IMG/VR virus record: IMGVR_UViG_3300017762_000047 | Location: 1 to 29,115 of that record | Source of the DNA: a virus | Direction: 5' to 3' (one strand) | Length of the DNA stretch: 29,115 nucleotides | Shown: positions 1 to 28,891 of the stretch, one piece after another | Numbering within the stretch: position 1 is the stretch's first letter | Layout of the letters: each line of letters starts with the position of its first letter | Translations under genes and position numbers: made by a program | The notes under the pieces: model-generated | What the model was told of the DNA's origin: nothing | What the model saw: the letters and a program-made list of their open reading frames with translations, nothing else | Database searches by the model: none

Positions 1-3000
1 GCGCTATACTTTTTTATTTGATTTTTAAGCTTTTGCATTAACGGGCCAGGCTTACCTTTAGTGACCTTGTTAAAGTCTGTAAAGTCAAAGTTCCAGCCTT
101 CGCTAGCTAACACGTCGCCAACAAACGGCCACTCATCAGAAGCTATACGTTTAGTTTCTTTACCTTTAGTTGCGATTACAAAGTTTTCGCTCACACCAAC
201 GGTTTCGTCAAAGTCAAATATGCTTATGCCTTTAGCTTCAGTGTCAGAGTTTATCAGTCTAGCTTTATTGTGAGCTTCGTTAATTGTTGTTTGGTTTTTA
301 GCTCTACCTTTTGAAAGCTGTGCTCTAACATTAGCTGTCGTAGCCATCTGCTTAGCGTCTTGCTTTATAAAAAGGTTTAATTTAGCTTTTTTAAACGCAG
401 CGGCGTTTAGCTGAGGTTCTACTCTTAATATAAGCTTTCCAGTGCTTGATCTAGACATTCTTATAGTTAAAGGTATAACGGCATCGTTAATTCCTTTAGT
501 ATTTAAGTTTAAAACGTCTGTGTCGCCTAGGTGAAAAAGCCCAGCAGAACCCATGTTTATGTATTGAGACGGAATTGATTTGTTTAAGTAAGCAAACGAA
601 ACCCACTCACCGCTAACTATTTTAAAAGTTTTAGAAAGTTTTGCTGCTAACCCAGCGTTTTTTATAACTTCCCATTGAGCTTTAGTAATAGTAGTTTTAC
701 TGTTAAACTCTTTTAAACCAAGCAGGCTAGCCATTTCTTTTAGTATAGGCTTAGCTTTGTCATATAGTTCTTTTACAACGTCAGGGTTAAAAACTTCTTG
801 CGGAGTTTTCAAAGCAGAGTCGCTTAACAAGTCCCATTGATAAGAGTTAGATACTCCTCTAGCAGAGTCTCCTTTAACTTCAAAGCCTATCTTAACACCG
901 CCAGGAAACTCTAACCACATATCTGGTAGACCACCTTCTCTAGGTTTTTTCATTAAAGCTTTTATGTCTTTATTTCCTTTAGCTACTTCAATTAAATTAT
1001 TGATAACTAATATTTCTAGTATTTTATGTGCGGGTTTATTTTTGTTACCTTTTTTGTTTCTTAGCTTAGCATATTCTTCTGCTACGTTAGGTAGCTTAAA
1101 CACTTTAGTGTAGTTTTCTTGTCTTCTTTTCAAGTACTCTCGTATAGCGTGACCTACTATAAGATCTTTGTCTTTAGTTATTCCTTGTACAAACGTTTTG
1201 ACGTTAGCGCTTTGCATGCCGTCTACTCTAAACATTTTTACTAGCTCTAACGCTTGTGTTTCTTGTGTAGAAGAAAGAGAGAATTGAGTATTAATACCTC
1301 TATTTACTTTTCTAGCCAAGTCTTGAAGTTGAACTTCAATATCTATGTTAGGAGAAAATATCATTGCTTCTTGAAGAACCGCTGGCTCTTGAACTGTTTC
1401 CATTACAGCATCAAGGGCTAGTGTAGAAATCATCATACGAGACAAACCATCTTTTCTAGTACCTCTTGTTGATCTACCTATTTCGTAGTTTAATACCTCA
1501 GCCATTGTCTGACCGTCAGACGTTCTACCTAAAAAGAAAGCTTCAACCTCCGCTTTCGTTGGCTTACGCTTTTCGTATAGATCAGGACCAGTGTTTCTAC
1601 CAACGTCAGGCTTTATTTTACCCTTGTTTATAGCGTTGTCAACCTCTGTTGGGCTTATGTTTTTCTTTACTATAACACTGAATATTCTTTTGCCTTCAGG
1701 AAACTTTTGGCCAACAAGTCTTTCCATAGCAACAAGATCTTGTATTGTAGAATATTCTAATATAACGTCAATGTTGTCGTAAACAAAGTCAATAAAGCTT
1801 TTGCCGCTACCCATAGCTTGCTGCACAATGTTTTTCATTTTCTTCTTAACATTGTTTTCAAACTTAAGCATAAAGTCTTTTTCAGATATTTCAGTCTTTT
1901 GAGACTTAACTATATCTCTTACGCCTTGTCTTATGTCTTCTTCTTGCTGTTCAGCAATAAACTTTTTACCGTCTTTTCTTTTTAGTTTTTGTCTATATTC
2001 AGACTTTACAACGCCACGCTCTTCTGTTGGCTCAGCAAATATACTTTGATCTTGATTTTCAAAATCTTCAATCATAGCATCTTGTTCATCTGCTATAAAG
2101 TCAGCTGCCGTCATTTTACCGTCACCACTTACGTCTTTATCAAGAGAGCTTGCTGCAACTTGTTTTTTAGCTTTTTTAGCAGCATCACCAACTCTAAAAG
2201 CTATACGACTGTTTATGTGTCCAGATAAACCAAACTTGCCATCTTTAGTGGTTTCTTTACCTGGGTCAAAACCTAATATGTCTGGAATTAATAACTCTCT
2301 TACGCGCTCTTGAAATTCTTCTAACGGCACGCCGTTTACGTTAGCATCTGTAGCGCTAATATCTATACCAGCTTTTACTAATTGTTTATTAATTAAAGGG
2401 TCTAAGTTTTGATCGCTTACTAAGTACATGTAAGCATCGACGCTGCCTTTGTCGTCGTACTCTTGCTTAGTCATTTTAGAGCCGTCTTCATTTAACGCAA
2501 AGCCGTCAACTTTTTCTTGTATTACAGATGACTTTTGAGCAGTAGCTCTAGCGCCTTCTTTTCCTTTAATAGGACCTACGTCAACACCTTCTCTAGCAGC
2601 CCTCGCTATTATCTTACCAGCGGCTTTATCTCCAGCTACAGCCTTGCCAAAAGTTTTAACAAAGTCAAAAACTTGCTTACCGTCTTTGAACTGTAGTTTT
2701 TTAGCGTAGCTGTCAGGTAGTAAGCCTTGCAATTGCTCTGATATAATATTACCAAGCTTAACGAAGAAACCTTCGTTTTCAGCTTTGTATATTTCGTTAA
2801 CCATTGAGTCAGAGAGTAGGTTTAAAACCTCTTGCGCTTGTAAGTCTTCTGTTAAATTAATTTTACCGTTCTTGTCTACAGCGCCATAAGCTTTTAACCT
2901 AGACTTGATTTGATTAAGAAAATCAACCTCGCCAGACTCAAGTAAATGATTAATAAGCTTTTGCCCAGTTTGTATACCAGCGCCTCTTGCTTCAGTCATA

Positions 3001-5096
3001 CCGGCCACAACGTCAGACTTTTTAAAGAACGTTTTACGTAAAGCAGCATGTAAAAACTCGTGCGCAGCTACATTAACATATCCGCCTTCATCAGTAATAT
3101 CTGCCTCATTACTTAACACCATCGTTAACTTGCCCGTAGTGTTGTCTTCGAGAAGCATACCGTAAGTACCAGCGTTAACAGCTTCAGATATTTTTATTTT
3201 TTTACCTTTTTCGTCTCGCGTTAAACCTTTAGCAGCGTCTTCAAGTGTTTCTTGACGGTCAGCTATTATCTCTTGAACTTCTTTGATAGCTTTTGTATCA
3301 CCTTTTTCTTGATAACCTTTAAGCTCTGCCTCTAAAACCTGTATGTCGTAGTTAGCGTTTTCAACTAAGTTGTTAGTGTATTGCTCTACAATTTCATCTA
3401 TACTTCCTTCAAAGGTATCGATGTCCATATCTTTGTAGGCTTTCATTTTTTTAACCCTACCGGTCATTTCGTCTTTAAGTATATCTAACCTAGCTCTTTT
3501 TACTTTTTGAGCGCCTTCAGATTTACCTATTTCTACAGCGCCTTCGTACTTACCTATAATAGCCTCTATTTCAGCTTCTACCGTAGCAAGTTGCTCTGCA
3601 GCATTAGGTACTTTTTCTATACCTTTCTTTTCTGCTTTTTTATTTAGATCAACTCGTTTTTGCTCAAGCTCAACTAAAGCCTCTCTATCAGCTTTATCTG
3701 TTATTTTAGAATCTATTTGAGAGTCTGCTATTGCTTTGCCTTGAGTTTGATCAACAAAAGTTTTTAAAGACTTGTCGCCAATAACCTCTATCTTAGCTTT
3801 AGCTTTATCTTCGTTTGATACGTTTTCGTTATTTAAAAAGCTTTCTATATCTTTTCTAGTTGCAGCGCCACCGTTTAACGTGTAAGATCTTTTAGCCAGT
3901 ATGTCAGCAACGTTTGCAACACCTTTAGCTTCAGCTATACCTTCTAAAAATATTTCACTAGCATCTAGCTCTTGCCCAGCGGCCTTTTGCCCTAAAGCTT
4001 CACCACCAGCACCTGCTGTCATCTCTAGCGCGGCAACTTGTTTTGCTAGTCTACCTTTCTGCGTTGCGGTTAAGGCTTTTTGAACTTTTTTACCGCTCTT
4101 ACCAATAGTAGTAGCTCCTTTAACGGCAACAGCACCTATACCTCTTGATAGGCCAGCTGTTACACCTTCAATAGCACCTATAGTTAAACCTCTAGCTACA
4201 GCTTTATCTTTTAAATCTTGAAACTTATCAGCGTCTTCTAGTATAGCTCTAACATTTTCTTTTGTCATCTCTACACCTTCACCAATCTCCTCTTGTAATA
4301 GCTGAGCTAAAGTGTTACCAGTTTCCATTACACCGGTAAGACCACCAAAGAAACCACCAACAGCCCCAGATACTGCACCGCCGGCCGTGGTTAAAGCACC
4401 AAGAGGTCCAAGTGAAAAACCTGTAGAACCTATAGCAGCACCCGCGGCAGCACCAGCACCTGAAGATAAAGCGGCCATACCAAGAACTTCTTCAGAGTCT
4501 TCAGCAGAAGAAATCATTTGAGATATAGAACTTACGATTACAGCAGGGGCTATAGTAGGATTTGCAGCAAAAGCTTTTACAGCGCCCCACATACCACCAC
4601 CATTTTCTTCGTACATCTTCTGGTAGTTAAGCATTTCATCCGTAACACCAGCTTCTTGCATACGCTTGTTAGCATCTAAAAAAGCTTGTAGATCTTCTGT
4701 AGATAAGTTTCTACCTTTTTTGTATAACTCTAAAGCTTCATCTACGCTTTGCCCTGCGGCCCAACCTTGTTTACCAGATCTATACAAGTCACCTACAAAA
4801 TCTGTTACAGTGTTTTTGCCAAAAGTATTTTCTATCCAAGTGTTTTTCTCTTGACTAATTTCACCGCCAATCATTATATCGTTTCCATCTTTGTCAACGC
4901 CAGGTTTTACTTTAGGCAAACTATACATGCTTGAAAACCTTTCAAAGTCTCCGTCAAACAAACCTTTTTCTTTAACAGCGGAAAAAACGTTTTGCTTGTA
5001 CTTGTCGTTTTCGTAAAACTGAGAAAACTTATCAAACGATATGTTTAAAAGATTGCTCTCTATTAAAGCTTTGTATAAATGCTGTATATTATTCAT
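1..5096 (-). CDS. Giant polyvalent virion protein, partial (zincin, PD-(D/E)XK-like and HAD-like domains)
   Basis: The frame is open from ATG at 5096 to the left edge: 1698 codons without a stop, checked codon by codon, so the gene continues outside. Starting 8 bases after the preceding stop, it is the last gene of the cluster in view. Residues about 180-320 are a Gly/Ala-rich hydrophobic stretch that could enter membranes. Residues about 440-650 are charged and coiled-coil-like. H679-E-F-L-H683 is a zincin metal site (E756 is a possible third ligand). D988 to D999 forms an EF-hand/dockerin-like loop. P1391-D1392 with E1406-V-K1408 fits a PD-(D/E)XK nuclease core, preceded by an E-bearing helix. 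D1628-F-D1630-E-T1632 fits HAD motif I; the remainder of that domain is cut off. Polyvalent proteins of this sort are known to enter the host with phage DNA and act against host functions; here that role is inferred. Neighbouring cargo-like genes support it. Confidence 0.85.
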   Translation of the reverse strand, partial: MNNIQHLYKALIESNLLNISFDKFSQFYENDKYKQNVFSAVKEKGLFDGDFERFSSMYSLPKVKPGVDKDGNDIMIGGEISQEKNTWIENTFGKNTVTDFVGDLYRSGKQGWAAGQSVDEALELYKKGRNLSTEDLQAFLDANKRMQEAGVTDEMLNYQKMYEENGGGMWGAVKAFAANPTIAPAVIVSSISQMISSAEDSEEVLGMAALSSGAGAAAGAAIGSTGFSLGPLGALTTAGGAVSGAVGGFFGGLTGVMETGNTLAQLLQEEIGEGVEMTKENVRAILEDADKFQDLKDKAVARGLTIGAIEGVTAGLSRGIGAVAVKGATTIGKSGKKVQKALTATQKGRLAKQVAALEMTAGAGGEALGQKAAGQELDASEIFLEGIAEAKGVANVADILAKRSYTLNGGAATRKDIESFLNNENVSNEDKAKAKIEVIGDKSLKTFVDQTQGKAIADSQIDSKITDKADREALVELEQKRVDLNKKAEKKGIEKVPNAAEQLATVEAEIEAIIGKYEGAVEIGKSEGAQKVKRARLDILKDEMTGRVKKMKAYKDMDIDTFEGSIDEIVEQYTNNLVENANYDIQVLEAELKGYQEKGDTKAIKEVQEIIADRQETLEDAAKGLTRDEKGKKIKISEAVNAGTYGMLLEDNTTGKLTMVLSNEADITDEGGYVNVAAHEFLHAALRKTFFKKSDVVAGMTEARGAGIQTGQKLINHLLESGEVDFLNQIKSRLKAYGAVDKNGKINLTEDLQAQEVLNLLSDSMVNEIYKAENEGFFVKLGNIISEQLQGLLPDSYAKKLQFKDGKQVFDFVKTFGKAVAGDKAAGKIIARAAREGVDVGPIKGKEGARATAQKSSVIQEKVDGFALNEDGSKMTKQEYDDKGSVDAYMYLVSDQNLDPLINKQLVKAGIDISATDANVNGVPLEEFQERVRELLIPDILGFDPGKETTKDGKFGLSGHINSRIAFRVGDAAKKAKKQVAASSLDKDVSGDGKMTAADFIADEQDAMIEDFENQDQSIFAEPTEERGVVKSEYRQKLKRKDGKKFIAEQQEEDIRQGVRDIVKSQKTEISEKDFMLKFENNVKKKMKNIVQQAMGSGKSFIDFVYDNIDVILEYSTIQDLVAMERLVGQKFPEGKRIFSVIVKKNISPTEVDNAINKGKIKPDVGRNTGPDLYEKRKPTKAEVEAFFLGRTSDGQTMAEVLNYEIGRSTRGTRKDGLSRMMISTLALDAVMETVQEPAVLQEAMIFSPNIDIEVQLQDLARKVNRGINTQFSLSSTQETQALELVKMFRVDGMQSANVKTFVQGITKDKDLIVGHAIREYLKRRQENYTKVFKLPNVAEEYAKLRNKKGNKNKPAHKILEILVINNLIEVAKGNKDIKALMKKPREGGLPDMWLEFPGGVKIGFEVKGDSARGVSNSYQWDLLSDSALKTPQEVFNPDVVKELYDKAKPILKEMASLLGLKEFNSKTTITKAQWEVIKNAGLAAKLSKTFKIVSGEWVSFAYLNKSIPSQYINMGSAGLFHLGDTDVLNLNTKGINDAVIPLTIRMSRSSTGKLILRVEPQLNAAAFKKAKLNLFIKQDAKQMATTANVRAQLSKGRAKNQTTINEAHNKARLINSDTEAKGISIFDFDETVGVSENFVIATKGKETKRIASDEWPFVGDVLASEGWNFDFTDFNKVTKGKPGPLMQKLKNQIKKYS
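870..926 (-). other. PD-(D/E)XK nuclease-like motif in the giant protein
   Basis: Codons 1391-1392 are P-D and codons 1406-1408 are E-V-K, 13 residues apart, with beta-strand-like sequence (W-L-E-F, then V-K-I-G-F) between them. A helix containing H-K-I-L-E-I lies about 33 residues upstream, where this fold places its first acidic helix. The spacing and context suit a restriction-endonuclease-like fold; activity is not shown. Confidence 0.6.
2100..2135 (-). other. EF-hand/dockerin-like calcium loop in the giant protein
   Basis: Codons 988-999 read DVSGDGKMTAAD. The positions D1, S3, D5, G6, M8 and D12 match the 12-residue EF-hand or dockerin loop. Only one loop is seen, so pairing with a second loop elsewhere or in a partner chain would be needed for a classic EF-hand pair. 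Confidence 0.55.
3048..3062 (-). other. Zincin metalloprotease motif HEFLH within the giant protein
   Basis: Codons 679-683 of the giant protein read H-E-F-L-H inside a hydrophobic helix (VAAHEFLHAAL). This is the HExxH zinc-binding and catalytic signature. A strand-like segment rich in Y, M, L and V precedes it, as in metallopeptidase folds. E756, in a helix downstream, is a candidate third zinc ligand, but the spacing is long and this is a guess. Confidence 0.75.
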
Positions 5097-5104
5097 GCTA
5101 GAGT

Positions 5105-6745
5105 TTATTTGCTAGGATTCCAACCAATCATTTGATGCATCCAGTCTTGAAGAGCTTTTGCCTGATCTTCGTCTTTAGTATCACTCATGTTGTCAAACTC
5201 AAATACTTCCTCTTTAGTTACGCCTAAAGTAGGATGCTCGTAGTATACTGTTAGTTGATCGCCTTTTGAACCTTCCCAAGTTTTTGTTTCAAACCTAAAC
5301 CCATAATCGCCGTACTCTCTGTTTAAAGTTCCTGTGACGTATTTACCGCTGCCGTAGTCAAAAAGGTGATTATCAACACTCATTGTTCTATTCTCAGGGT
5401 CAGTTCCAGGGGCCCAACCGTATTGAGTTATACCAGCAAAAGGACTAGTTGCAATTCCGTAGTTGTCGCCACCTCCTGTTTGACCTTGGTAAATTTCAGT
5501 TCCTTCTATTTTAGGTGGAGCTATTTCAGTTATATCTATTGGGATTGGCGTTATATCGCTACCTTCTCCACCATTACCTCCTGATTCTTCTTCACCTGGA
5601 AACTCGTTTAAGGTGGTCACGGGCTTAGGTTTACCTTTTTCAGACTTTTCAACTTTTTTAAGCTCGTCAGTATACCACTTTCTAAAATGATCAATTACTT
5701 TTCTTTCTTTACCGTCAGCACCTGTTATTTTGTGGTTAACACCATTTTTTTGTATAGCTTGCCTAACGTCTATCATTTCATTTGGATCTGTCACCCCTAA
5801 ATCTTCGTAAAACTTATTAAACCAGTTTGAAGTGTTAAACATATCTCCGTTTTTGCTGTAGCCTACTAAGTTTCCTTCATCATCTTCTAAGCTATGCTCA
5901 GAATCAAATATTAACGACTTAACACCGTCTTGACCAAGATCGCTAAACATATTGTTAACTTGGTAATGCATGTTTTGATCGTAGTTAGGGCTTTCTGCTG
6001 ACATATCAGAAACAGCTGCTAATATATTGTTGTGAGAGTCAAAAGCCGCGCCATAAGTCATTTCAGGCGTTCCTGCTTTAATTGACTCTATAGATATTTT
6101 TTTATCAGGATCATCATCGGCAATGTCAGGATTAGGATCTACCCAATAAAGTTTACCATCTATAGTTTGAAAATTATCTGATACACCTTGCTGGATGTCA
6201 GAGTACATGTTTTTAACACCCGGAGCGTTACCCTTAGACATTTCTTCAAGGTTAAAGTTAGCGTCGTTCATGGTGTTTTTTATTTCCATGAGTTTTGCGT
6301 TTTGATCACGTAAGCCTAAAGAGTTTTTGTTTATATCTGCTATTTCAGCTACTAAATCAGCATACTTAGGATTTCTAGGCGACATATACGCCAACTGCCT
6401 GTTTAACTCTTTAAATCTAGCGTTGTTTTCAGTCATAGTACTAGTGACTAAATCACCAACGCCACCGTGTAGCTTTGAATCGTCTATGTCAGGATTAGCT
6501 AGCTTGTGCGCTAGCATGCCAGCTGTAACTCTGTCTTCGGCATCTTCTACCATTTTAAGAAGAGGCTTATAGCCGCTTTCAAACCTTTTTTGATCTGCTA
6601 AAGGTTGTAATCTTTGTTGTGCTCCAAGCTTAGCTAGTTTATCAAACAAACCAGCGGTTGGCATGCTGTCAACGTTTTTCTGCATATCGCCAAGAAAGTC
6701 TTGACCTAAAAGCTCGTTTCCTTTTTTGTCTTTATCTTCTGCCAT
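5105..6745 (-). CDS. Internal virion/cargo-like protein with C-terminal beta domain
   Basis: This is a 546-residue soluble protein with no signal peptide or membrane segment. Residues 1-190 are helical and charged, with a conserved-looking segment N-A-R-F-K-E-L-N-R-Q-L around 108-118. Residues 190-365 are mixed. A low-complexity acidic, Gly- and Pro-rich linker lies at about 365-427. Residues 428-546 look like a small Trp/Tyr-rich beta domain that might bind a partner. I recall similar sequences beside the internal proteins of crAss-like and marine flavobacterial phages, where their exact job is unclear. It starts at ATG 6745, 6 bases after the stop of the repeat-rich protein, and ends 8 bases before the giant polyvalent gene. 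That packing suggests the three are co-translated and co-packaged. Confidence 0.8.
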   Translation of the reverse strand: MAEDKDKKGNELLGQDFLGDMQKNVDSMPTAGLFDKLAKLGAQQRLQPLADQKRFESGYKPLLKMVEDAEDRVTAGMLAHKLANPDIDDSKLHGGVGDLVTSTMTENNARFKELNRQLAYMSPRNPKYADLVAEIADINKNSLGLRDQNAKLMEIKNTMNDANFNLEEMSKGNAPGVKNMYSDIQQGVSDNFQTIDGKLYWVDPNPDIADDDPDKKISIESIKAGTPEMTYGAAFDSHNNILAAVSDMSAESPNYDQNMHYQVNNMFSDLGQDGVKSLIFDSEHSLEDDEGNLVGYSKNGDMFNTSNWFNKFYEDLGVTDPNEMIDVRQAIQKNGVNHKITGADGKERKVIDHFRKWYTDELKKVEKSEKGKPKPVTTLNEFPGEEESGGNGGEGSDITPIPIDITEIAPPKIEGTEIYQGQTGGGDNYGIATSPFAGITQYGWAPGTDPENRTMSVDNHLFDYGSGKYVTGTLNREYGDYGFRFETKTWEGSKGDQLTVYYEHPTLGVTKEEVFEFDNMSDTKDEDQAKALQDWMHQMIGWNPSK

Positions 6746-6751
6746 AATATA

Positions 6752-7936
6752 TTAACTAAATAAATTGCTTAAAAAGCTTCCTTTGTCAAAAGCTCCTTCG
6801 CTCGCCGCACTTCCAAATGCTGTCAACAAATCACCAGCTCCGCTTGGAGTACTTTGACTTACCGCGGTAGACGAAGCTAAGTTGCTAGCGCTTAAGCCGT
6901 ACATGTTTGTTATTCTGTTTATGTTTTGCTGTTCAACATACTGTTGGCCTTTACGATCTAGCATGTCTACCTGAAAAGCTCCGCTAGCCATAAGTTGATC
7001 TAATCTGCTTTGTTCTGAAGCGCTTAACCCTTGAAGCCTTGAAGCTTCGCCTCTTTGTAGTTGGTCTAATCTACCGGCTTCTTGAGCAGTAAGACCTTGT
7101 AGTCTAGCTCTTTCACCCATTTGCAATTGCTGTATTCTACCTTTATCACCTCTTTGTAGCTGATCTATTCTAGCGGCTTCTTGAGCTGTCATGCCTTGTA
7201 GTCTTGCTGTTTCACCAGCTCTTAATTGATCAAGTCTAGAAGCTTCGCCTAATTGCATTTGTTGTATTCTACCAGCCTCTCCACGAGACGCCATTTGGTT
7301 TTGTCTTTCTTGCTGAGCAATATTTAAAGAAGCTTGCCTTGCTTGTTGGTTGCCAGCCGCGGCTAAACTTTGCGCTAAACCAGCCACGCCGCTAGAACCA
7401 GCGGCTCCACCTAGACTACTTAGTAAATTAGCTTGTTGTTGCTGCGATTGCTCTCTAGCAAAGTCTGCGGCTCTAGTGTCAACTCTTAGGTCTTCCATAG
7501 TATTCTGCATGTCAGAGAATCTATTCTGTAAACCAGCATATTGATTTGTTAATCCGGCAAACTGATTTTCCATTCCACCATATTGACTTTGCAAACCAGC
7601 GTATTGATTAGTAAGGCCTGAAAATTGGTTAGCCATACCTTCGTACTGATTAGAAAGGCCTGACATTTGATTAGTAAGATTAGCGTATGGATTAGTTAAT
7701 CCTTCGTATGGGTTTTGAAACTCAATAGCATTGTATTGAGCCTGCATTTCGTTAAATCTTTGTTGATCTGCTTGCTGTTGTCTTCTAGCTTGTCTTCTAG
7801 CTTTACGCTTTCCAAAGAACCCCATAACAGCTCCGCCAAGTTGTAAGGCAGCGGGTAATCCAACTGGTATTCCTTTTAAAGGACTTTCTTTACCTTCAGT
7901 TTTTTTAAAAGGCGAACGTGAGCCGTATATTGCCAT
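6752..7936 (-). CDS. Repeat-rich internal virion (ejection-like) protein
   Basis: This 394-residue protein has a short Gly-rich hydrophobic segment at 25-42, then a strongly basic stretch (K/R at 43-52). Residues 75-151 are eleven tandem heptads of the form N-Q-Y/F-x-G-L-x. Residues 152-222 are Gln/Ala-rich helix with a G-G-A-A-G break. Residues 223-321 are nine tandem hendecads of the form R-L-x-Q-L-x-x-G-E-A-x. The tail is Ser/Ala-rich. The layout of hydrophobic segment, basic patch and long amphipathic helices recalls small podovirus internal proteins such as T7 gp14 in general character, not by detectable homology. Its place just before two other cargo-like genes supports an ejection role. 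It starts at ATG 7936 after a 41-base AT-rich gap, with no Shine-Dalgarno sequence. Confidence 0.8.
   Translation of the reverse strand: MAIYGSRSPFKKTEGKESPLKGIPVGLPAALQLGGAVMGFFGKRKARRQARRQQQADQQRFNEMQAQYNAIEFQNPYEGLTNPYANLTNQMSGLSNQYEGMANQFSGLTNQYAGLQSQYGGMENQFAGLTNQYAGLQNRFSDMQNTMEDLRVDTRAADFAREQSQQQQANLLSSLGGAAGSSGVAGLAQSLAAAGNQQARQASLNIAQQERQNQMASRGEAGRIQQMQLGEASRLDQLRAGETARLQGMTAQEAARIDQLQRGDKGRIQQLQMGERARLQGLTAQEAGRLDQLQRGEASRLQGLSASEQSRLDQLMASGAFQVDMLDRKGQQYVEQQNINRITNMYGLSASNLASSTAVSQSTPSGAGDLLTAFGSAASEGAFDKGSFLSNLFS
6974..7270 (-). repeat. Nine tandem hendecad repeats (R-L-x-Q-L-x-x-G-E-A-x), protein level
   Basis: Codons 223-321 consist of nine 11-residue units, for example RLDQLQRGEAS, RLQGLTAQEAG and RIQQLQMGERA. 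Arg starts every unit, followed by Leu or Ile. A partial 33-residue higher-order period is visible, since units 3, 6 and 8 share the form R-L-Q-G-x-(S/T)-A. The matching DNA is more alike between units than in the heptad array, suggesting more recent duplication. Confidence 0.95.
7484..7714 (-). repeat. Eleven tandem heptad repeats (N-Q-Y-x-G-L-x), protein level
   Basis: Codons 75-151 of the repeat-rich protein consist of eleven consecutive 7-residue units. Examples are NQYEGMA, NQFSGLT, NQYAGLQ and NQFAGLT. Asn leads ten of the eleven units; an aromatic residue or Met is at position 3 and Leu or Met at position 6. At DNA level the 21-base units are only partly alike, so the repeat is maintained by protein selection or is old. 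Confidence 0.95.
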
Positions 7937-9568: not shown

Positions 9569-12500
9569 CTATTCTTCTTCAATGTTTTCTGATACTAGCT
9601 CTACAGGATTTGCCGACAAAATTCCTATACCTTGAAATGTAAAATCAGATGTCTTAGGTTCACCTTTTCCTTTTATGTAATTAAACCACTTGTCTTCTTT
9701 TTCTATAAACTCTTTTATAGAGCCGCTTTCCATGTTTGTATCTATGCTTGATACTTTCCATCCAACTTTAGCAAATTGATTATGCAAGCCTGAGTCTGTA
9801 ACACCTAAAACTGTTTCACTACTAGGAACGTGAGCTTGCGATCCTTCATAGTTTATTGTTTTAAAGTTCTTAATAAGCTCAGGCGCATCGTTTAAAAGCG
9901 TTGTTATTGTTGAAGAAACTGATTGCAGGTTATAGAAAGTGTTTGGTGTAGCTTCTTGATGGTAGTGCTGATAGGCTTCTCCGTTTTTAAAAGTAAAATA
10001 CTTTTTAGAAACACTAGTTCCACTTTCAGGAATAAACGACTTAAAACTAGTCCAACCTTTTACCTCTTCGCTGTAAGATATAGTTTGCTTTGTTACTTCA
10101 GGAAAAGCAATCTGAGTCATTGTAATGTTGTCTATAGACATGGTTGTTAAAGAGTCTTCGCTAGAAGAAGTTATCATTAAAGAACCTATTACATGTTGAT
10201 CAGAGTCAAAAGAGTCAATGCTTTGTATTTCTACAGTTTCTGAAACATTAAGCGTGCCTTCGTCTACCGTAAGCGTAAATCCTGCTGTTGGACTAGCGTA
10301 ATAAGTAACTTCTATAGAGCCAGAAGTGTAAGAGGTTACGTTAAAGCTAACGTTGTATTTTTGACCAACTAATACTTCTTGTTCTATGGCTTGAGAAACT
10401 CTTAGTCCTTTTAATGCCTCATTCCATTTAATTTGTTCTTCTGCAAACAAAAGATTGTCAACGTTTTCTGCGCTAAGAGTATTTATTTCACCGCTCTCGT
10501 AATCTATTTCACTAAATACCCATGAGCCTACAACACCTCCACTTACTATAGAAGTTTCGTCTATTATAGACAAATAATCTAACTTGCCAACAAACCAATT
10601 TGGCACAACGTTACCAGTAGAGCCATCTTGATTTATAGGCCTAGCATATATACCTGGTGTATCTGGAGGTTGAACACTTACTCCTGTAATGCTAGCGTTA
10701 GAACCTTCCGGCTGCACTACGCTTGATATGCTTGATTCGTTAAGATTAAAAAACACAGTGTAATCACCCGCTGTATCTACTATGGCTCTAATAACTCTAG
10801 TTTGACCATCTTCCCACTCAGGAGTTTCAATTCTTATATATAGCTTTCCTTCTACAGTCCCCGTGTCTGGGTTTGGTTGTATTCCAAACTTTAAAGCATA
10901 GCCGGCTGAAGTAGCACTAGTAAGCTCGTCACCTGACCAGTCGTAATTTATTCTATTGGCAGCTCCATTACCGCTGTATGTTTCTGGTATGTTCCAAACC
11001 CAACCGCCGTTTTGATAGTAAGAAACAGGTTCGCTAAGAGCGTTTATTAAATTGCTTGTTGTTTGAGAACTCCACTCTTCGGAAAATCCACCTAAACTAC
11101 CAGTTTCAGAAATATTAATTACTGTAATGTCGTTAATTTCAAAAAGTCCATTTTGACAGTCCCACAATGAAAGTCTAACTTTGTCTAAGCCTTCGTAAGA
11201 TTGACTGCTAGCTTGAAACACTGCTCTAAGCACAGGTCTTTCTTCTCCATATTCCGTGGCCATTACTGGCATACATATTACACCACCAACTGGAGTTACT
11301 ACACTTCCACTACTGTTTGTGTTTCCTGTTGCTCCTGGGTATCTATACATTTGACCAAAGTAGCCGTTTGGATAGTTTGCATCGCCAGGAGTTGTTTTGT
11401 ACGCATCGCCACCACCTGTAGCCGCGGGTATGCATCCATATATTATAGGAATAGTATCTCCGTTTATTTTTAAAAAGTTACTTGTACTTGGCGTGCTAAT
11501 AGTAATAGAGTCTGGATCGTAGCCAAGATCAACCATGTACCAATCACCATCTACTAATTCTACATCTACTTCAAACCCTGCCACTTCTGCAGCTGTGTCT
11601 AACGTTCCTATTGAGCCGTCTACAACGTGATTTGTTACTCCAGCAATATTATAAGAAGATAAGGCCGCTCCATTGTGGTTGTCATAAGCTTCACCTGCGC
11701 CATACTGCTGATACGTTGTCGTGCCGTTGTCAGTGCCCGTGTAATATTGATAATCGTTTGTAACACCTTCTTGAGTAATCGATTCTGTTTGCCATGCTCC
11801 AGGGTTTTCTTGTCCATACTGCTGTAACGCGGCGTAGTTAAGTTGAGTGACACCGGTAGAATAGTAGCCTGAAGGCAAAGTGTGTATAACTTCTGCCCAC
11901 GCTGGTATTGTAGAGCTAGGGATTGCCGGCGTAGATTCAGTTCCATAAACAGGGGTTTGACTAGTCTGCTCGTCCTCACCAGTGTCAAAGTCGCCTAAGT
12001 TTTCTGCAGTTACACCTTGAGCGGCCGCTAAGGTTCCGTATTGAACACCACTCGCAGAAGTGTCGTATACTTGCGCGTCTACGTTGTAATACGCAAACTC
12101 TGCTTCTGCCGCAACTTGCTCGTCGTACTCTGCTGCGCCTGGATTAGAGTTTCTAAATTCTTTTTTAATTCTTACGCTAGTAAACAATATATCGTACTCT
12201 TCGCCAGGTTGAGTGTCCATTTCAACCTTTACATTTAGTTGATCAATAACTTTTGATAAAGGTAGCATGTAGTCACTCCAATAGTTGGGCATATTCGGAT
12301 TTTTTGCACCTCGAGCAACTTTATAGTAAAGCTTTATGTATCTTTCATCAGCGCTTTCCCAAGAATGATAGTTAACAGTTCCATTGTGAGTATAACTAGG
12401 TTCGCTTTGAAAGCCAAGGCTTCCAGCTGTGGGTGTTACTTGAAGCCCAACAAAATCTCCTTGAGCAGTAACATTAACATCAGAAGTTGTAACATCATTA

Positions 12501-21566: not shown

Positions 21567-23006
21567 TTAGTTTAACAACATGAAGTTGTTAGCACCTTGT
21601 ACCACTAAACATCTTTCAGATAAGTAGTGTACTTCCATAACGTCTTTTCCTGAAGTCATAGCTCCTACAGAACCTGTTACCCAAGTTTTGTATTTTCTAG
21701 ATTCAGTTTCAGACTGACGGTAACGCACGTGTAAGAAAGGACGCTTAAGGTTCTTTCCTAATTGCTCGTCATATACTGAAGATACGCCCGCTGGAATTAC
21801 AACTCCACGAATGTTGCTTACAGTATCATTAAGAGCTCCACGAGTTCCTTTGTCGTTCAAGTAGCGGAAGTCAGACTTATAAAAGTCGTAAGAACCTCTA
21901 CGGAACCCAGAGAAACCTAAATTTAACGCCATATCTTCTTGGTTGTCAAAAACACCGTAAGAAGTACCACCAGCACCATAAGAGTTCATAGAAGCTAACA
22001 TATCGTCTATAGCAAGAGAAGTTCCTCTGTCTACAAATAACATATTTTCTTCAATAGCACCGTTTTGGTCGAATGTAGCTAAAATTTGATCAAACTCAGC
22101 TAAATCAGTAGCAGCATTAACACCAGTAACACCAGATGATTGGTGACCTCTTGTTTCAATAGCAGCGAATAAACCTTCAGTACCATCATTAATACTTTGA
22201 TCAGTACCACCAATTGCTCCAGCGCCATCAACAGCTTTTTCTGCTTCTAGCATAGTCATCTCTAAATAATCAGAGAAACGAGCTCTAGTATCACCTGCGG
22301 CTTTTAAATACCATAAGTAACCACTTTGACCTTCTTCACCAGAAATTTCAACCCAACCAACTTGAGCAGCATCAGATCCAGATACTTCGTAGAAGTCCTT
22401 CATGATGATGTGCTTGTTTGAGTGAGACTTGAATTTTGGCGCGTTAGCAGCTGATCTTCCGTCAGTTCCTTTTTCAAATTCAGAACCAATAACTAAGATT
22501 CTTACAGCTCCTGCTGTAGTAGCAGTAGAACCTAAGGCTGTAGTCATGTTTGCAGCTCCATAAGCGATAACTCTAATTTGATCAGTATCATCATCATCTG
22601 GATCGATTGCAGAAACATAACCTTTAGCAGTAGCACCAGCTACAGACATGATAACCATATCACCTACTCTAATACCGTGGTTTGCACCAACTGCATTTCC
22701 ATCTACGTCATTAACGATAGTATAGTCTGTGTTGTTGTCATTGTAAGTAGCAGTGTAAGCTAAGTGTAGACGACCTTGTTCAGACCAAATTACTCGGTCA
22801 GAAGCAGAAGGCTCTTCAGCACCTACTTGAGCTAAAAATCCTGCGATAGTTCTTTTACCATAGACTTCAGCTTCTTGCTCCATTAAGTCTGGTAAGTATT
22901 GTTGTGCCCAGCCTTCAGTAGCTGAACTTGTAAAATCAACGTAATTAGAGTTTAGCGTCTGTTTTCTAGGCGCTGCGTCTATTCCGTTTGCACTTGTAAT
23001 TGCCAT
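21567..23006 (-). CDS. Major capsid protein (HK97-fold, crAss-like type)
   Basis: This 479-residue protein forms the head shell. The assignment rests on gene order (terminase, portal, scaffold, this gene), on length, and on the C-terminal pattern H-Y-L-S-E-R-C-L-V-V-Q-G-A-N-N-F, which I recall from crAss-like capsid proteins. Residues about 83-175 look like an inserted small beta domain (A-Y-T-A-T-Y ... V-G-D-M-V-I-M ... I-R-V-I-A-Y-G). It includes an acidic loop with six Asp in eight residues (135-142) that could hold a metal ion. A long helix follows at about 240-260 (D-Y-L-E-M-T-M-L-E-A-E-K-A). It starts at ATG 23006 with an A-rich leader and no Shine-Dalgarno sequence. The strong terminator behind it suggests a separately abundant transcript end. 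The HK97 fold is inferred from family knowledge. Confidence 0.88.
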   Translation of the reverse strand: MAITSANGIDAAPRKQTLNSNYVDFTSSATEGWAQQYLPDLMEQEAEVYGKRTIAGFLAQVGAEEPSASDRVIWSEQGRLHLAYTATYNDNNTDYTIVNDVDGNAVGANHGIRVGDMVIMSVAGATAKGYVSAIDPDDDDTDQIRVIAYGAANMTTALGSTATTAGAVRILVIGSEFEKGTDGRSAANAPKFKSHSNKHIIMKDFYEVSGSDAAQVGWVEISGEEGQSGYLWYLKAAGDTRARFSDYLEMTMLEAEKAVDGAGAIGGTDQSINDGTEGLFAAIETRGHQSSGVTGVNAATDLAEFDQILATFDQNGAIEENMLFVDRGTSLAIDDMLASMNSYGAGGTSYGVFDNQEDMALNLGFSGFRRGSYDFYKSDFRYLNDKGTRGALNDTVSNIRGVVIPAGVSSVYDEQLGKNLKRPFLHVRYRQSETESRKYKTWVTGSVGAMTSGKDVMEVHYLSERCLVVQGANNFMLLN

Positions 23007-24252: not shown

Positions 24253-26670
24253 TTATCTAGGATCGTAACCACCTAAATTAAATCCACTTCCAATAGTATC
24301 ATTACCTGATGACTCAAAGTTTTTAGGTGGTTTACCTGACTTTCTTTGATCTATAAGCTCTGATTGTTGTGAAGCTTGGATCTTAGTTCTATTATCTTTA
24401 CGATCTTCTTTTTCTTTTTCTCTATTCATCAGCGTCTGATTATCCATAGCTCTAAGCTGCATGTTATATTGAAACTCTTGAGCCATAAGTCTTTCTTTAA
24501 TGACAGACTCTGCTTGTAGTTTTTGAGCGTCGAGTTGAGCTTGCATTTGAGCTAGCTGAGCTTCAGCTTGCTTAAGAGCCTGTTGCTTTTGCACTTCCAT
24601 TTGAGCAGATGCTTGTTGTTGTTGTATATTAGCTTGAGACTGCGCTTGAATGTTTTGTTGTTGTATTTGCTGGTCTTTCTGCATCTTCTTCTTTCTACGT
24701 ATTTTAAGAAGTTGATTAGCTAGCTTAATGTTCTTTATTTCTCTTAAATCAATAACATCTTCTAAGTCTATAGTCTGTTGAGCTAAAGCTTGTTGTATGT
24801 TGTTTTCTAGCTTAGCTTGCTCTTCTTCGTCTGGAGCTAAATCTAAAAATATACCAAAGTCATATAAGTGTAAGTTGCTCATTTCTTCTAGCGTAGCTAC
24901 ATTGTGTACGCCAATACTTTGAATAAAAGCATCTTTTGTAGGCGAATACTCTATTATATCAGATATTCTTAAAGACAAAGCTTCAGCTACTTCAGTCGTT
25001 AAATACAAACCAGAGTTTAATATATGCCTAGTTGCGGTGTTTGAGTTTGCTGCAGCCATTTTTTGAACGCCAACCAAAGCTCTTTCATCTGGCGTGCTAC
25101 CATCTCTAGCTTCGTTAAGACCCGTAGTATCACGTATCATTTGTAAGTAATAGTTATAATTACCTATTAGCGCTTGTATTTTGTTGCCTCCAGATCCAGA
25201 AGTTATTTCTTGAATAGGCACTTTACCTGGATTCATGTCACCTTCTGAAGTAAAGCTTCTTCCAATAACACTACCTGTTTGAAAGAACATGTTTAAAGCT
25301 TCTTGTGGGCTGTAGTTAGTTCCATTACCTAAGTCTATTTCAGCTAAACCATCAGCGTCAAGATAAACACCATCTGGAACCATTTTAGACATTACTTGCT
25401 GCAGCTTTAAATGTGTAAGCTGAATCATATCTGCAAAACCCGTAATGCGCTTAACTAAAGACTCTATTTTACCTTTGTACATTCTAGGCGCTACAATACT
25501 GTAGTTCATTTTAACTTTAGTAAAATCACTTTTAGGTCTCATCATGTTCTTTGACATCTCCCACTTAAGCAATTTGTTCGTCCCTAAAACTATAGCGCCT
25601 TCGTACAAGCACTCTATTGATCTTTGTAATTTAGAGAAGTTTTCAGCGTCTTCAGGCGGGTTAAATCTATCGTCTTTTTCTATAACTTTATTAGCTCCAC
25701 TACCTGTTTCTTTAACTTTATACACCTCGTTCATGTACGTTTTATAATTAAAATATAGTACAGAAACTTTGTTGTTGTCTTGATTCTCATAACCTCCACC
25801 TCTATGCTTATTAGTCTGAGGGGCTGAGTTTGTTTCGTTTATTTCCTCTAGATCAGATTGTTCTAAATGCGGAAATTGTTTAGCTAATTCATTTATAGGT
25901 ATTGTTTTAACTTCACCAACATAATATATGTCATCAAAGTAAGGAGACTCTGTGTAAGAGTAAACCAAGTTGGCTGGGTCAACATAGTCTATAACTACAC
26001 CTTCAGACGTGTTAAAACTAGTTTTTACCGCACCAATACCTAATACAGTTAGATCGTAAAAAAATTGCTTTTTAATTAAATCGTACTTGTTGCCTTCCAT
26101 TAAAACTTTTATAGCTTGCTCTTCAGCTATTTCTACGGCTTGCTTGTAAGTTAGCTGCATGTGAAGCTCTAGCTCTTCTTGTGTCTGTGGTAAAGTTTCA
26201 GGATCGTTTTCATACAAGTTCATGCCGAACTCTTCAGCCGCGAAGTCATTCATTTCTTTAGCTGCCATGTCGCCAAGTATACTTTCCATATACTCTGTTC
26301 GTTTAGCAACGCCATTAGGATCTTGAGAATACGCTTTAATATCGTACACGCGTTCTGCTATGCCGTTAACCACAATGTCTACAAACTTAGGTATAATTGG
26401 CACTGGCGTCCAGTCTAAGTTTAAATATGATAAGTCGCCGTTTATAGAAAGCTCGTCTTTGTATTTCTTTATTGACTGTTCTCCTCTAGCGTATAATCTT
26501 AACCTATGAAAATCATTTTGATAACTTTCATATCTGTCAGTTCCGCTGTTGTCGTTAAACCATTCTGACTCTATAGCTTTAGCTACTTTTAAGCCGTAGT
26601 CGTAACTTATTTTTTCTGCGTCGCTAACGACTTGACTTGGGAAATAATTTTTTATAACAGACTCTGCCAT
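24253..26670 (-). CDS. Portal protein
   Basis: This 805-residue protein should form the dodecameric ring through which DNA enters and leaves the head. It lies 4 bases after the terminase gene and just before the scaffold, the standard position. Its size fits the large portals of crAss-like phages. Recognisable segments are the N-terminal wing with P-I-I-P-K-F-V-D-I-V-V-N-G-I (91-104), a central T-G-F-A-D-M-I-Q-L-T-H-L-K-L-Q-Q-V-M (410-427), and R-D-T-T-G-L-N-E-A-R-D-G-S (513-525), a portal-type D-x-T-G-L-N motif. Residues 658-770 are an extreme Gln/Ala/Met-rich helix that could form the portal barrel or crown inside the head. The leader is A-rich (AAAATAAAAAT before ATG). Confidence 0.9.
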   Translation of the reverse strand: MAESVIKNYFPSQVVSDAEKISYDYGLKVAKAIESEWFNDNSGTDRYESYQNDFHRLRLYARGEQSIKKYKDELSINGDLSYLNLDWTPVPIIPKFVDIVVNGIAERVYDIKAYSQDPNGVAKRTEYMESILGDMAAKEMNDFAAEEFGMNLYENDPETLPQTQEELELHMQLTYKQAVEIAEEQAIKVLMEGNKYDLIKKQFFYDLTVLGIGAVKTSFNTSEGVVIDYVDPANLVYSYTESPYFDDIYYVGEVKTIPINELAKQFPHLEQSDLEEINETNSAPQTNKHRGGGYENQDNNKVSVLYFNYKTYMNEVYKVKETGSGANKVIEKDDRFNPPEDAENFSKLQRSIECLYEGAIVLGTNKLLKWEMSKNMMRPKSDFTKVKMNYSIVAPRMYKGKIESLVKRITGFADMIQLTHLKLQQVMSKMVPDGVYLDADGLAEIDLGNGTNYSPQEALNMFFQTGSVIGRSFTSEGDMNPGKVPIQEITSGSGGNKIQALIGNYNYYLQMIRDTTGLNEARDGSTPDERALVGVQKMAAANSNTATRHILNSGLYLTTEVAEALSLRISDIIEYSPTKDAFIQSIGVHNVATLEEMSNLHLYDFGIFLDLAPDEEEQAKLENNIQQALAQQTIDLEDVIDLREIKNIKLANQLLKIRRKKKMQKDQQIQQQNIQAQSQANIQQQQASAQMEVQKQQALKQAEAQLAQMQAQLDAQKLQAESVIKERLMAQEFQYNMQLRAMDNQTLMNREKEKEDRKDNRTKIQASQQSELIDQRKSGKPPKNFESSGNDTIGSGFNLGGYDPR

Positions 26671-26674
26671 ATTT

Positions 26675-28891
26675 TTATTTTATTATTTTTGATGTGTTAC
26701 CAGTGTTAGTGTATCTTGATATGTTAAGGTTTAGTGCTGGTTTTTTTATGTCAGCGTGAGGTTTGTATAAGTGCCGATTGCACGCCATTATAGCTAAACC
26801 AGAACTTATTGCAGCATCAAACTTTGTACGTTTATTTATATCAAACCTACTCCATTCGTTCAGCGTTTGGTTAAAGTATACGTTTCCGTAATTACCATCA
26901 CCTTTGTGGCCTACGTGGTCTTGTATATACATTTCTATTGCCGCAGCGTGAGCTTGCTTTATGTCTTCACTAGAGTTTGGTATACCACCAACTTCTTTTT
27001 CTGCCACAGACAACTTGTTCCATGTTTTGTCTGGTCTATTCATACTAAAACCTCTATATCCTCTACGCTTTAAATAATAAAGCAATCTAGGTTTATTATT
27101 CTCAGCGAGCAATGGCATACCATAAAATACTAAAGCCATTAATACGTCTTCAAAAAATATTTCAGCGGTTTGTGGTCTTGCAATGTATTCTAAGAACATG
27201 TGATTTGGCGGAGCGTCTTCCATTGAAAACTTTGTTAAACCATGCAAAGCACCTTTAGATCCTTTACCGTCTACCGTTCCACTAATATCGTAGCTATCAC
27301 ACCCAAAAGCACCAACATGCTCATTACCCGGGTATTTAACTCCGTTCTTTATTATAACTCTATTCTGAAGGTTTACTGGTGGAACCCAACTAATGTTGAA
27401 CCTACCTTTTGGATCTGGATAAAAAACTACCTTTGTATCTTTTACTCCGTTCACCCATTGGAAATTACCCGTGTTAACTACAGAGCTATTTCTAATGCCT
27501 TCATTGTAATCTATCTGTTCGTATATCTTAACTAAGTTAAATATACTGTTTTTTGCTTCATCTCTGAAAGCGTGTTCTTCTGTTCTAGGAAACTGACGGT
27601 AAAATTCATTTAAACCATCTTGATCTCCTTTTAGTCCATCGGCCTCATTGTCCCAGTGCTCAATAATACCTATGTCTATCAATTCACCGTCGGGTCCATA
27701 AACGTCTCGTCCGGGAGTATTAAAGACAGGGCTTCCAAATTCATCAATGAATCCTTCATAGTTCCATTCCATTGGGATAAACAGAGAGTATAAACCAGAA
27801 CGTGTTTGACCATTTCTATTTCTTTGCGTTACATCACTATCTTGATATAACTTTTTAAAATTATCACCGCCTTTATCCAAAGCGTTACTTGTTGAACCCA
27901 TCATACACTTGCCAACTATTCTAGAACCTAGTCTAAGACAAGTCTTTGTAACTCGCCAGTTGTTAAGTATATTGTCAGGCCTTTCCCACTTACCACTTTC
28001 ATCGTGAACAAGTAAAGAAAGTTTCTCACCATCATAACTGTTGTCACCAGTGTTCTTCCAGTCAATCGTCGTGTCTAGACCTTTTATATCTTCTAACTGT
28101 TCGTTAACCTCTATTTTTTTACGAGTAAACTTACTCGCTGGCACACGATATGCTAGCTCAGACTTAGGTCTATCCATACCATCTTGAATAGGCTTGAAGA
28201 AAAAAGGATAGTTTATAGATATAGGTACAACCTTGTCAGTAAACATCTTTTTAGCATCACCACCACTTTTGGATAGTATTCCATATCTACTATCACTCGA
28301 TATTGTAGCTAAGTTAACGGTTTCAGCAGAGCTCATAAAAGAAAAGCCAGAACGTCTGTTTTTAAGATAGCACATACCGTAACATCTTTTATCAGCTTTA
28401 CAAGCCTCCCAAAATATAAAAAATAATCTATTAGCCTCACGAAAGTCTGGAGCGCCTACATCTATTTTAGACCATTGGAGGTACATGTAGTGAGCTCCCG
28501 TAAGATAAGTTGGAACACCAGCATTGCAAAACCAGAAGCCTTCGTCTCTTCTTTTGAATTCTTCATCTATATAATCGTACCATTGTTCTTTTTGCTCTTC
28601 AGGATAAGCTCTCCAGTCAAATATATTTTTTATTTTTTCTAAAGACTTAGGGTATTCTATTTTACGCCACTTCTGCTCTTCGTTAGCGTAGACATTGCTA
28701 GGCGGTTTTGGTAGAGCTATTTTTAAATTCTGAATCTCGTATATTTCACCTATTTGACCAGTCTTAGATACAACAACAACATCGTGCTCTTTGTCATATC
28801 CGTATTTCCATTTTTTACCTTTATTAAGTCTACTAATCGTAGTTTTCTTAATAGGCTCAATTATACTATATAGCGTTTGCTCGTAACTCAT
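26675..28891 (-). CDS. terL: Terminase large subunit (packaging ATPase and nuclease)
   Basis: This 738-residue protein is the motor that drives DNA into the head and cuts it. The ATPase half shows a divergent Walker A region L-K-N-R-R-S-G-F-S-F (176-185), lacking the usual G-K-S/T. Walker B is L-S-L-L-V-H-D-E (291-298, D297 and catalytic E298). The coupling motif is G-S-T-S-N (332-336). The RNase H-like nuclease half shows D532 (F-G-C-D-S-Y-D), E597 (P-L-L-A-E-N-N) and D692 (K-F-D-A-A-I-S-S-G) as the likely metal-binding acids. The ATG overlaps the upstream TGA (ATGA), giving translational coupling. A GGAAG sequence about 8 bases upstream could serve as a Shine-Dalgarno site, unlike most genes here. 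Confidence 0.92.
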   Translation of the reverse strand: MSYEQTLYSIIEPIKKTTISRLNKGKKWKYGYDKEHDVVVVSKTGQIGEIYEIQNLKIALPKPPSNVYANEEQKWRKIEYPKSLEKIKNIFDWRAYPEEQKEQWYDYIDEEFKRRDEGFWFCNAGVPTYLTGAHYMYLQWSKIDVGAPDFREANRLFFIFWEACKADKRCYGMCYLKNRRSGFSFMSSAETVNLATISSDSRYGILSKSGGDAKKMFTDKVVPISINYPFFFKPIQDGMDRPKSELAYRVPASKFTRKKIEVNEQLEDIKGLDTTIDWKNTGDNSYDGEKLSLLVHDESGKWERPDNILNNWRVTKTCLRLGSRIVGKCMMGSTSNALDKGGDNFKKLYQDSDVTQRNRNGQTRSGLYSLFIPMEWNYEGFIDEFGSPVFNTPGRDVYGPDGELIDIGIIEHWDNEADGLKGDQDGLNEFYRQFPRTEEHAFRDEAKNSIFNLVKIYEQIDYNEGIRNSSVVNTGNFQWVNGVKDTKVVFYPDPKGRFNISWVPPVNLQNRVIIKNGVKYPGNEHVGAFGCDSYDISGTVDGKGSKGALHGLTKFSMEDAPPNHMFLEYIARPQTAEIFFEDVLMALVFYGMPLLAENNKPRLLYYLKRRGYRGFSMNRPDKTWNKLSVAEKEVGGIPNSSEDIKQAHAAAIEMYIQDHVGHKGDGNYGNVYFNQTLNEWSRFDINKRTKFDAAISSGLAIMACNRHLYKPHADIKKPALNLNISRYTNTGNTSKIIK

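Follow-up and report, generated by a model that had tools for sequence, protein, structure and literature searches.

Modular giant protein of a phage virion locus, with zincin, PD-(D/E)XK and HAD modules and repeated linkers at the module borders

In phage T7 the ejection proteins gp14, gp15 and gp16 follow one another in the order small, medium and giant, and in T4 Pnkp mends tRNA that has been broken by a host defence nuclease. The virion RNA polymerase of N4 and DEV is likewise a giant ejected protein, accompanied by a small and a medium-sized one (PMC12633501, PMC10925440); in the N4 ejection operon the three are gp52 (150 aa), gp51 (644 aa) and gp50 (about 3,500 aa) (PMC12633501). The N4 polymerase contains a HExxH domain and, in the account of Iyer et al. 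2017 (PMC5512222), is packaged uncut despite it. The same paper describes the polyvalent proteins, which are very large, combine several unrelated enzyme modules, have a zincin as their hub and are encoded at a virion-gene locus, and it already proposed that polyvalent proteins are processed by their zincins.

The giant protein studied here shares these four features and, judged from its sequence, is a polyvalent protein and so of a known kind. It differs in its HAD module, as a HAD or polynucleotide-kinase phosphatase module is not named in the main text of that paper. Like N4 vRNAP it contains a HExxH domain and lies beside one small and one medium gene, though it differs from the N4 and DEV polymerases in its other cargo, with no RNA polymerase motif assigned in it and no sequence homology to them detected. 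In the literature searched, no description was found of repeated, protein-specific linkers or of a constant HAD-plus-core with exchangeable slots; the linkers are the new finding here.

The virion block and the giant gene

The window, that is, the whole stretch of DNA analysed, is an IMG/VR virus fragment of 29,115 bp. The genes of its virion block that are considered individually are:

26675-28891, minus strand: terminase large subunit (phrog_6681, 2e-169), in the head of the virion block (24253..28891)
24253-26670, minus strand: portal (phrog_6547, 2e-158)
21567..23006, minus strand: capsid-like virion protein (phrog_13704, 1e-97), which links the window to flavobacterial phages
6752..7936, minus strand: 394-aa gene in the small ejection-protein slot (T7 gp14 / N4 gp52)
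5105..6745, minus strand: 546-aa gene in the medium ejection-protein slot (T7 gp15 / N4 gp51), by position and size only
3..5096, minus strand: first 1,698 codons of the giant polyvalent gene, which starts at the ATG at 5096 and leaves the window at its left edge

The order of the genes is terL, portal, a 397-aa gene, the capsid-like gene, structural genes, a 2,905-aa protein, small genes, the 394-aa gene, the 546-aa gene and the giant, which is the last gene of the block in the window. Like the genes of other polyvalent proteins, it lies among late virion genes. The ends of the 2,905-aa structural protein (window 9569-18286) match phrog_14478 and phrog_18548, and its middle part (1346-1557) is also present in several family phages.

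A preliminary description had reported a single uninterrupted frame of at least 1698 codons, and the frame is indeed open over all 1,698 codons from the ATG. The gene is also found on three other IMG/VR contigs (94% and 81% identity), through which it could be completed leftwards to a full length of 2,565-2,587 aa (2,565 aa in L002, 2,587 aa in L004). The stop, read from the relatives' copies, lies about 870 codons past the window edge, so that about two thirds of the gene are inside the window. A frameshift was looked for and found in no copy; the relatives have an unbroken, full-length frame, so a frameshift can be dismissed. Searches of phage records with the whole protein by tblastn and with megablast gave nothing useful.

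The same description had called the two adjoining genes cargo-like. They hold up as virion-delivery neighbours, their position and size fitting the small and medium members of an ejection cassette, and the small-medium-giant order of T7 and N4 is present. No profile match or homology to the T7 or N4 ejection proteins was detected for the 546-aa protein, the 394-aa protein or the giant. Homologues of the 394-aa gene occur in about 20 family loci, where they precede an ORF of 380-640 aa, and as gene 72 of Gundel_1. An ORF of this size ends at most 60 nt from the start of the giant in 67 of 87 family members.

The capsid-like gene has 85 relatives in named phages, nearly all of them phages of Flavobacteriia (Flavobacterium elemo, Cellulophaga phages and Maribacter phage Panino). 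In phi38:1, phi13:2 and elemoA the block likewise ends in a giant annotated as structural, which for the Cellulophaga phages is a similarity statement in the records, and the same arrangement is seen in Gundel_1. The giants of these flavobacterial podoviruses (phi38:1 gp101, Gundel_1 gene 74 and elemoA gene 89) thus occupy the same slot of the same virion block, though their sequences are mostly unrelated to that of the window giant and the HAD plus core was not found in them. Part of the C-terminal core is shared with the Gundel_1 giant (E 6e-6), and HExxH with the giants of elemoA, Gundel_1 and podovirus ctfjg026. The giant that Panino has in this slot (L006:31774-37263) bears a tRNA methyltransferase annotation, and a similarity between it and the window giant was not found.

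Modules of the giant and their exchange

The protein is a chain of separable modules, running from an N-terminal domain through a zincin, a helical domain, the PD-(D/E)XK slot and the HAD to the core and the Zn-knuckles, with short linkers between them. Those that fall within the window are:

3708..5096, minus strand: N-terminal domain (residues 1-463; phrog_32588), common to 35 sequences
2562..3224, minus strand: zincin-type metallopeptidase domain (residues 625-845), with HExxH and a downstream Glu
1767..2519, minus strand: conserved helical domain (residues 860-1110), which holds a non-conserved EF-hand-like loop
327..1274, minus strand: PD-(D/E)XK nuclease module (residues 1275-1590), swapped as a unit between relatives
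3..239, minus strand: start of the HAD phosphatase (residues 1620-1698), with motif I DFDET; the remainder lies beyond the window

The Gly-rich N-terminal segment noted earlier is present as a Gly/Ala-rich stretch at residues 201-260 (window 4317-4496; 52% G+A in the L002 copy). As a source of phrog_32588, phi38:1 gp101 was rejected, as it has no similarity to the window giant.

Three unrelated enzyme domains, identified by invariant catalytic residues, are joined in the one chain. All three had been proposed before, and the residues on which each was based are retained in distant relatives. The zincin motif HEFLH is at residues 679-683 (window 3048-3062), with E756 (window 2829-2831) as the candidate third ligand. 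In an alignment of 30 highly divergent zincins nothing but the H, E and H is invariant; 77 residues beyond the first His, at least 90% of them retain a Glu. Of the 72 full-length members counted as independent, 70 contain HExxH, as against 0 of 72 shuffled sequences. The AF2 model of the domain, a weak one, runs helix, three strands, HExxH helix and more helices, one with that Glu, which is the order given for the class by Iyer et al. (PMC5512222). In Foldseek its highest-probability matches were selecase, CapP and PprI, none of them significant.

In the nuclease the residues concerned are E1361, P1391-D1392, E1406 and K1408 (PD...EVK at 1391-1408), and across 21 sequences at about 20% identity the E, D, E and K never vary. 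The AF2 model has a pLDDT of 55; Foldseek placed SduA first, with VRR-NUC, YaeQ and a Cas4-like nuclease in the top 50, none significant. The AF2 models are too weak to assign folds, and profiles made from the zincin, HAD and PD alignments gave only chance matches to PDB sequences.

For the HAD only motif I (DFDET, residues 1628-1632, window 201-215) is within the window; motifs II-IV lie past its edge and were seen in relatives. Over motifs I-IV (DxDxT, T, K, DD) the D, D, T, T, K, D and D are invariant in 25 sequences. The phrog_415 polynucleotide kinase profile is matched by 16 of the 25 HADs (best 1.1e-6; L002 0.0088), and in eight relatives (L019, L020, L025, L027, L030, L041, L042 and L043) a P-loop kinase is inserted in the HAD just after motif I. 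The two inserted kinases that were tested match Pfam AAA_33 and Zeta_toxin above the cut-off, and phrog_505 polynucleotide kinase was matched at 2e-10. These matches and insertions point to a putative Pnkp-like end-healing function. The likeness to T4-type Pnkp extends to the pairing of kinase and HAD, the difference being that in the relatives the kinase lies inside the HAD domain and not alongside it. In the eight relatives a Pnkp-like pair is thus nested in one domain of a giant virion-locus protein. The member in the window has the phosphatase only, without the P-loop kinase domain. The C-terminal third outside the window comprises the core, which is the constant partner of the HAD and is about 650-740 aa long (a mean identity of 49% across 18 sequences, without any Pfam family match), and, at the extreme C-terminus in the window's group, two DUF5763-type Zn-knuckles.

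The calcium loop of the preliminary description did not survive the comparison. It is a formal EF-hand match, DVSGDGKMTAAD, at residues 988-999 (window 2100-2135) of the helical domain. Homologous domains have other residues in place of DVSGDGKMTAAD, and 3 of 74 members contain a loop of this kind as against 1.5 in shuffles, so that an EF-hand module was rejected for want of conservation and for a frequency close to chance. In some members the helical domain (about 220 aa, alignment A9) reads SLDAPIDDSGRTAAELV, which is sigma-factor-like; a sigma-factor reading of residues 900-1050 (SLD...IADE) was without Pfam or PDB support and was set aside.

L002 and L004 are phages that are otherwise about 95% identical. 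Over residues 1272-1593 their identity falls to 31-48% in protein and 51-58% in DNA, with flanks at 80-100% and 78-97% respectively, a drop that marks the replacement of the nuclease module by a distant allele; in L004 the exchanged segment is residues ~1272-1615. L055, which is 71% identical across the last 990 residues, has an unrelated module in the nuclease slot (residues ~1151-1520) with KFSK linkers on either side. The borders of the replacements are sharp and lie at linkers. Across the family the core is constant and the cargo exchangeable.

Repeated linkers at the module borders

By eye, similar short sequences flank the modules: NTQFSL, RAQLSKG and, after the HAD in L002, RAQFSKG, with TAQKSS behind the zincin. 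In the window they are:

2526..2549, minus strand: post-zincin linker RATAQKSS, the weakest in this protein; a putative processing site
1275..1301, minus strand: pre-nuclease linker RGINTQFSL, the left border of the exchanged segment
306..329, minus strand: pre-HAD linker VRAQLSKG, paired with RAQFSKG after the HAD in L002

A fixed motif, Q-x-S-K, was not enriched in the family in its loose form (42 against 36.7±5.6). Since it failed to generalise, a motif-free test within each protein was used instead, in which the segment just after the HAD was compared with the 69 residues before it for the best 8-residue match, with mismatched protein pairings as the control. The match was 20.7 against 16.3±0.64 in a first set of 30 proteins, a value reached in 0 of 20,000 permutations, and 20.25 against 15.71±0.38 (p 5e-5) in an independent set of 72. 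For the post-zincin region of the independent set it was 18.49 against 16.67±0.35 (p 5e-5), and for a random upstream window 14.97 against 14.34 (p 0.03). The permutations ignore phylogeny, a concern lessened by the independent set and by the codon test described below.

The linkers differ from protein to protein and change jointly at two or three borders. Examples are ALASKDL, present three times in L023, KYSKSNR/KYSKSNK in L019, RLNSDNM/RLNSENL in L022, FKRTA/FKRAG/FKRVD in L177 and KFSKT/KFSKS in L055; in some members a clear pair is missing. Identical codons were used at 62 of 121 positions of the repeats, where 57.5 were predicted, and at 77 of 128 in the replication, where 69.1 were predicted. 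Serine pairs fell in the unrelated codon family in 15 of 23 cases and, in the replication, in 18 of 30. As the codons differ about as codon usage predicts, the repetition is maintained at the level of the protein.

Linker similarity also tracks zincin similarity beyond that of the core (r 0.205, p 0.005 in the first set; 0.213, p 0.0003 in the combined sets), weakly so in the replication set, where r was 0.093-0.122 with p of 0.097, 0.064 and 0.012. L134 was left out of the replication codon test and of the linker-zincin retest. L022 and L041 have cores from different clades but share their zincin class and their RLNS[DE]N linkers.

Proposed processing and function, and the probable host

It would seem very likely that the giant is packaged in the particle and delivered to the host together with the DNA, and its N-terminal and core parts may then serve packaging or channel functions. 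Taken as a whole, the best explanation is that it is the third and giant member of an ejection cassette of the podovirus type, with processed linkers, which we rate at even odds. The linkers are probably sites of proteolytic processing; that the resident zincin is what cuts them, freeing the cargo enzymes, is finely balanced. In its full form the proposal is a tentative one, somewhat short of an even chance: a tailed-phage polyprotein in which the zincin would cut the virion-delivered giant at linkers matched to the protease, releasing exchangeable anti-host or repair enzymes, with protease and sites co-evolving and new cargo gaining the right flanking linker.

It is conceivable, though rather unlikely, that the ejected protein stays whole, the linkers being recognition or hinge motifs for unfolding at the portal or for docking to a chaperone or channel, and the zincin cutting host proteins. 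According to Iyer et al. (PMC5512222), N4 vRNAP and the plasmid proteins ArdC and TraC1, whose peptidase domains are similar, are delivered in one piece, and repetition by itself is no proof of cutting. A common docking partner, however, would favour one motif throughout the family, whereas the linkers vary by protein and change together at their two or three borders. A poorer prospect still is cleavage by a separate head-maturation protease, as for the ejection proteins of SPN3US, whose particles contain ejected proteins and whose essential prohead protease, gp245, cleaves head proteins (PMC10052503). A candidate could be seen in the 397-aa gene, with no assigned function, that separates the portal from the capsid, but no comparable linker is present in the other virion proteins of the window (the best, in the capsid, scores 18 against 33), the zincin is found in 70 of 72 members and linker type tracks zincin type in the combined data. 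Modules do swap at the linker borders, as they would if the repeats were DNA-level recombination joints that aid module exchange and have no role in the protein; this reading is largely refuted by codon choice and the serine switches, and is very improbable.

The linkers make the 2017 hypothesis testable, as the predicted sites, being repeated, protein-specific and maintained at the protein level, can be read off each protein. If true, processing by the resident zincin would provide a rule for locating the borders between modules in many phage giants that lack annotation, and a modular route by which phages swap injected cargo.

Of the enzymes that would be released, the HAD is somewhat favoured to act on nucleic-acid ends, and one might speculate that an injected, pre-made phosphatase of the Pnkp type could serve an end similar to the tRNA repair by T4 Pnkp. 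For the nuclease slot, the fastest-changing part of the protein, the chances are about equal for and against an action on host or competitor DNA. The role against host defences suggested in the preliminary description may apply to such enzymes.

The HAD was matched at no fewer than 579 places in IMG/VR and the core at a minimum of 581; the family is widespread, yet nearly unannotated. The host is presumably a member of the Bacteroidota, since contigs of close relatives were binned with MAGs of Sphingobacteriales, Saprospiraceae and Flavobacteriaceae. The contigs of family members L056, L057, L060 and L061, assigned to Maricaulis, Aliivibrio, Caldiserica and Woesearchaeota MAGs, are probably misbinned phage contigs. 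Contigs L003 and L004 were recovered from separate metagenomes; over the 23 kb common to both, a single base differs.
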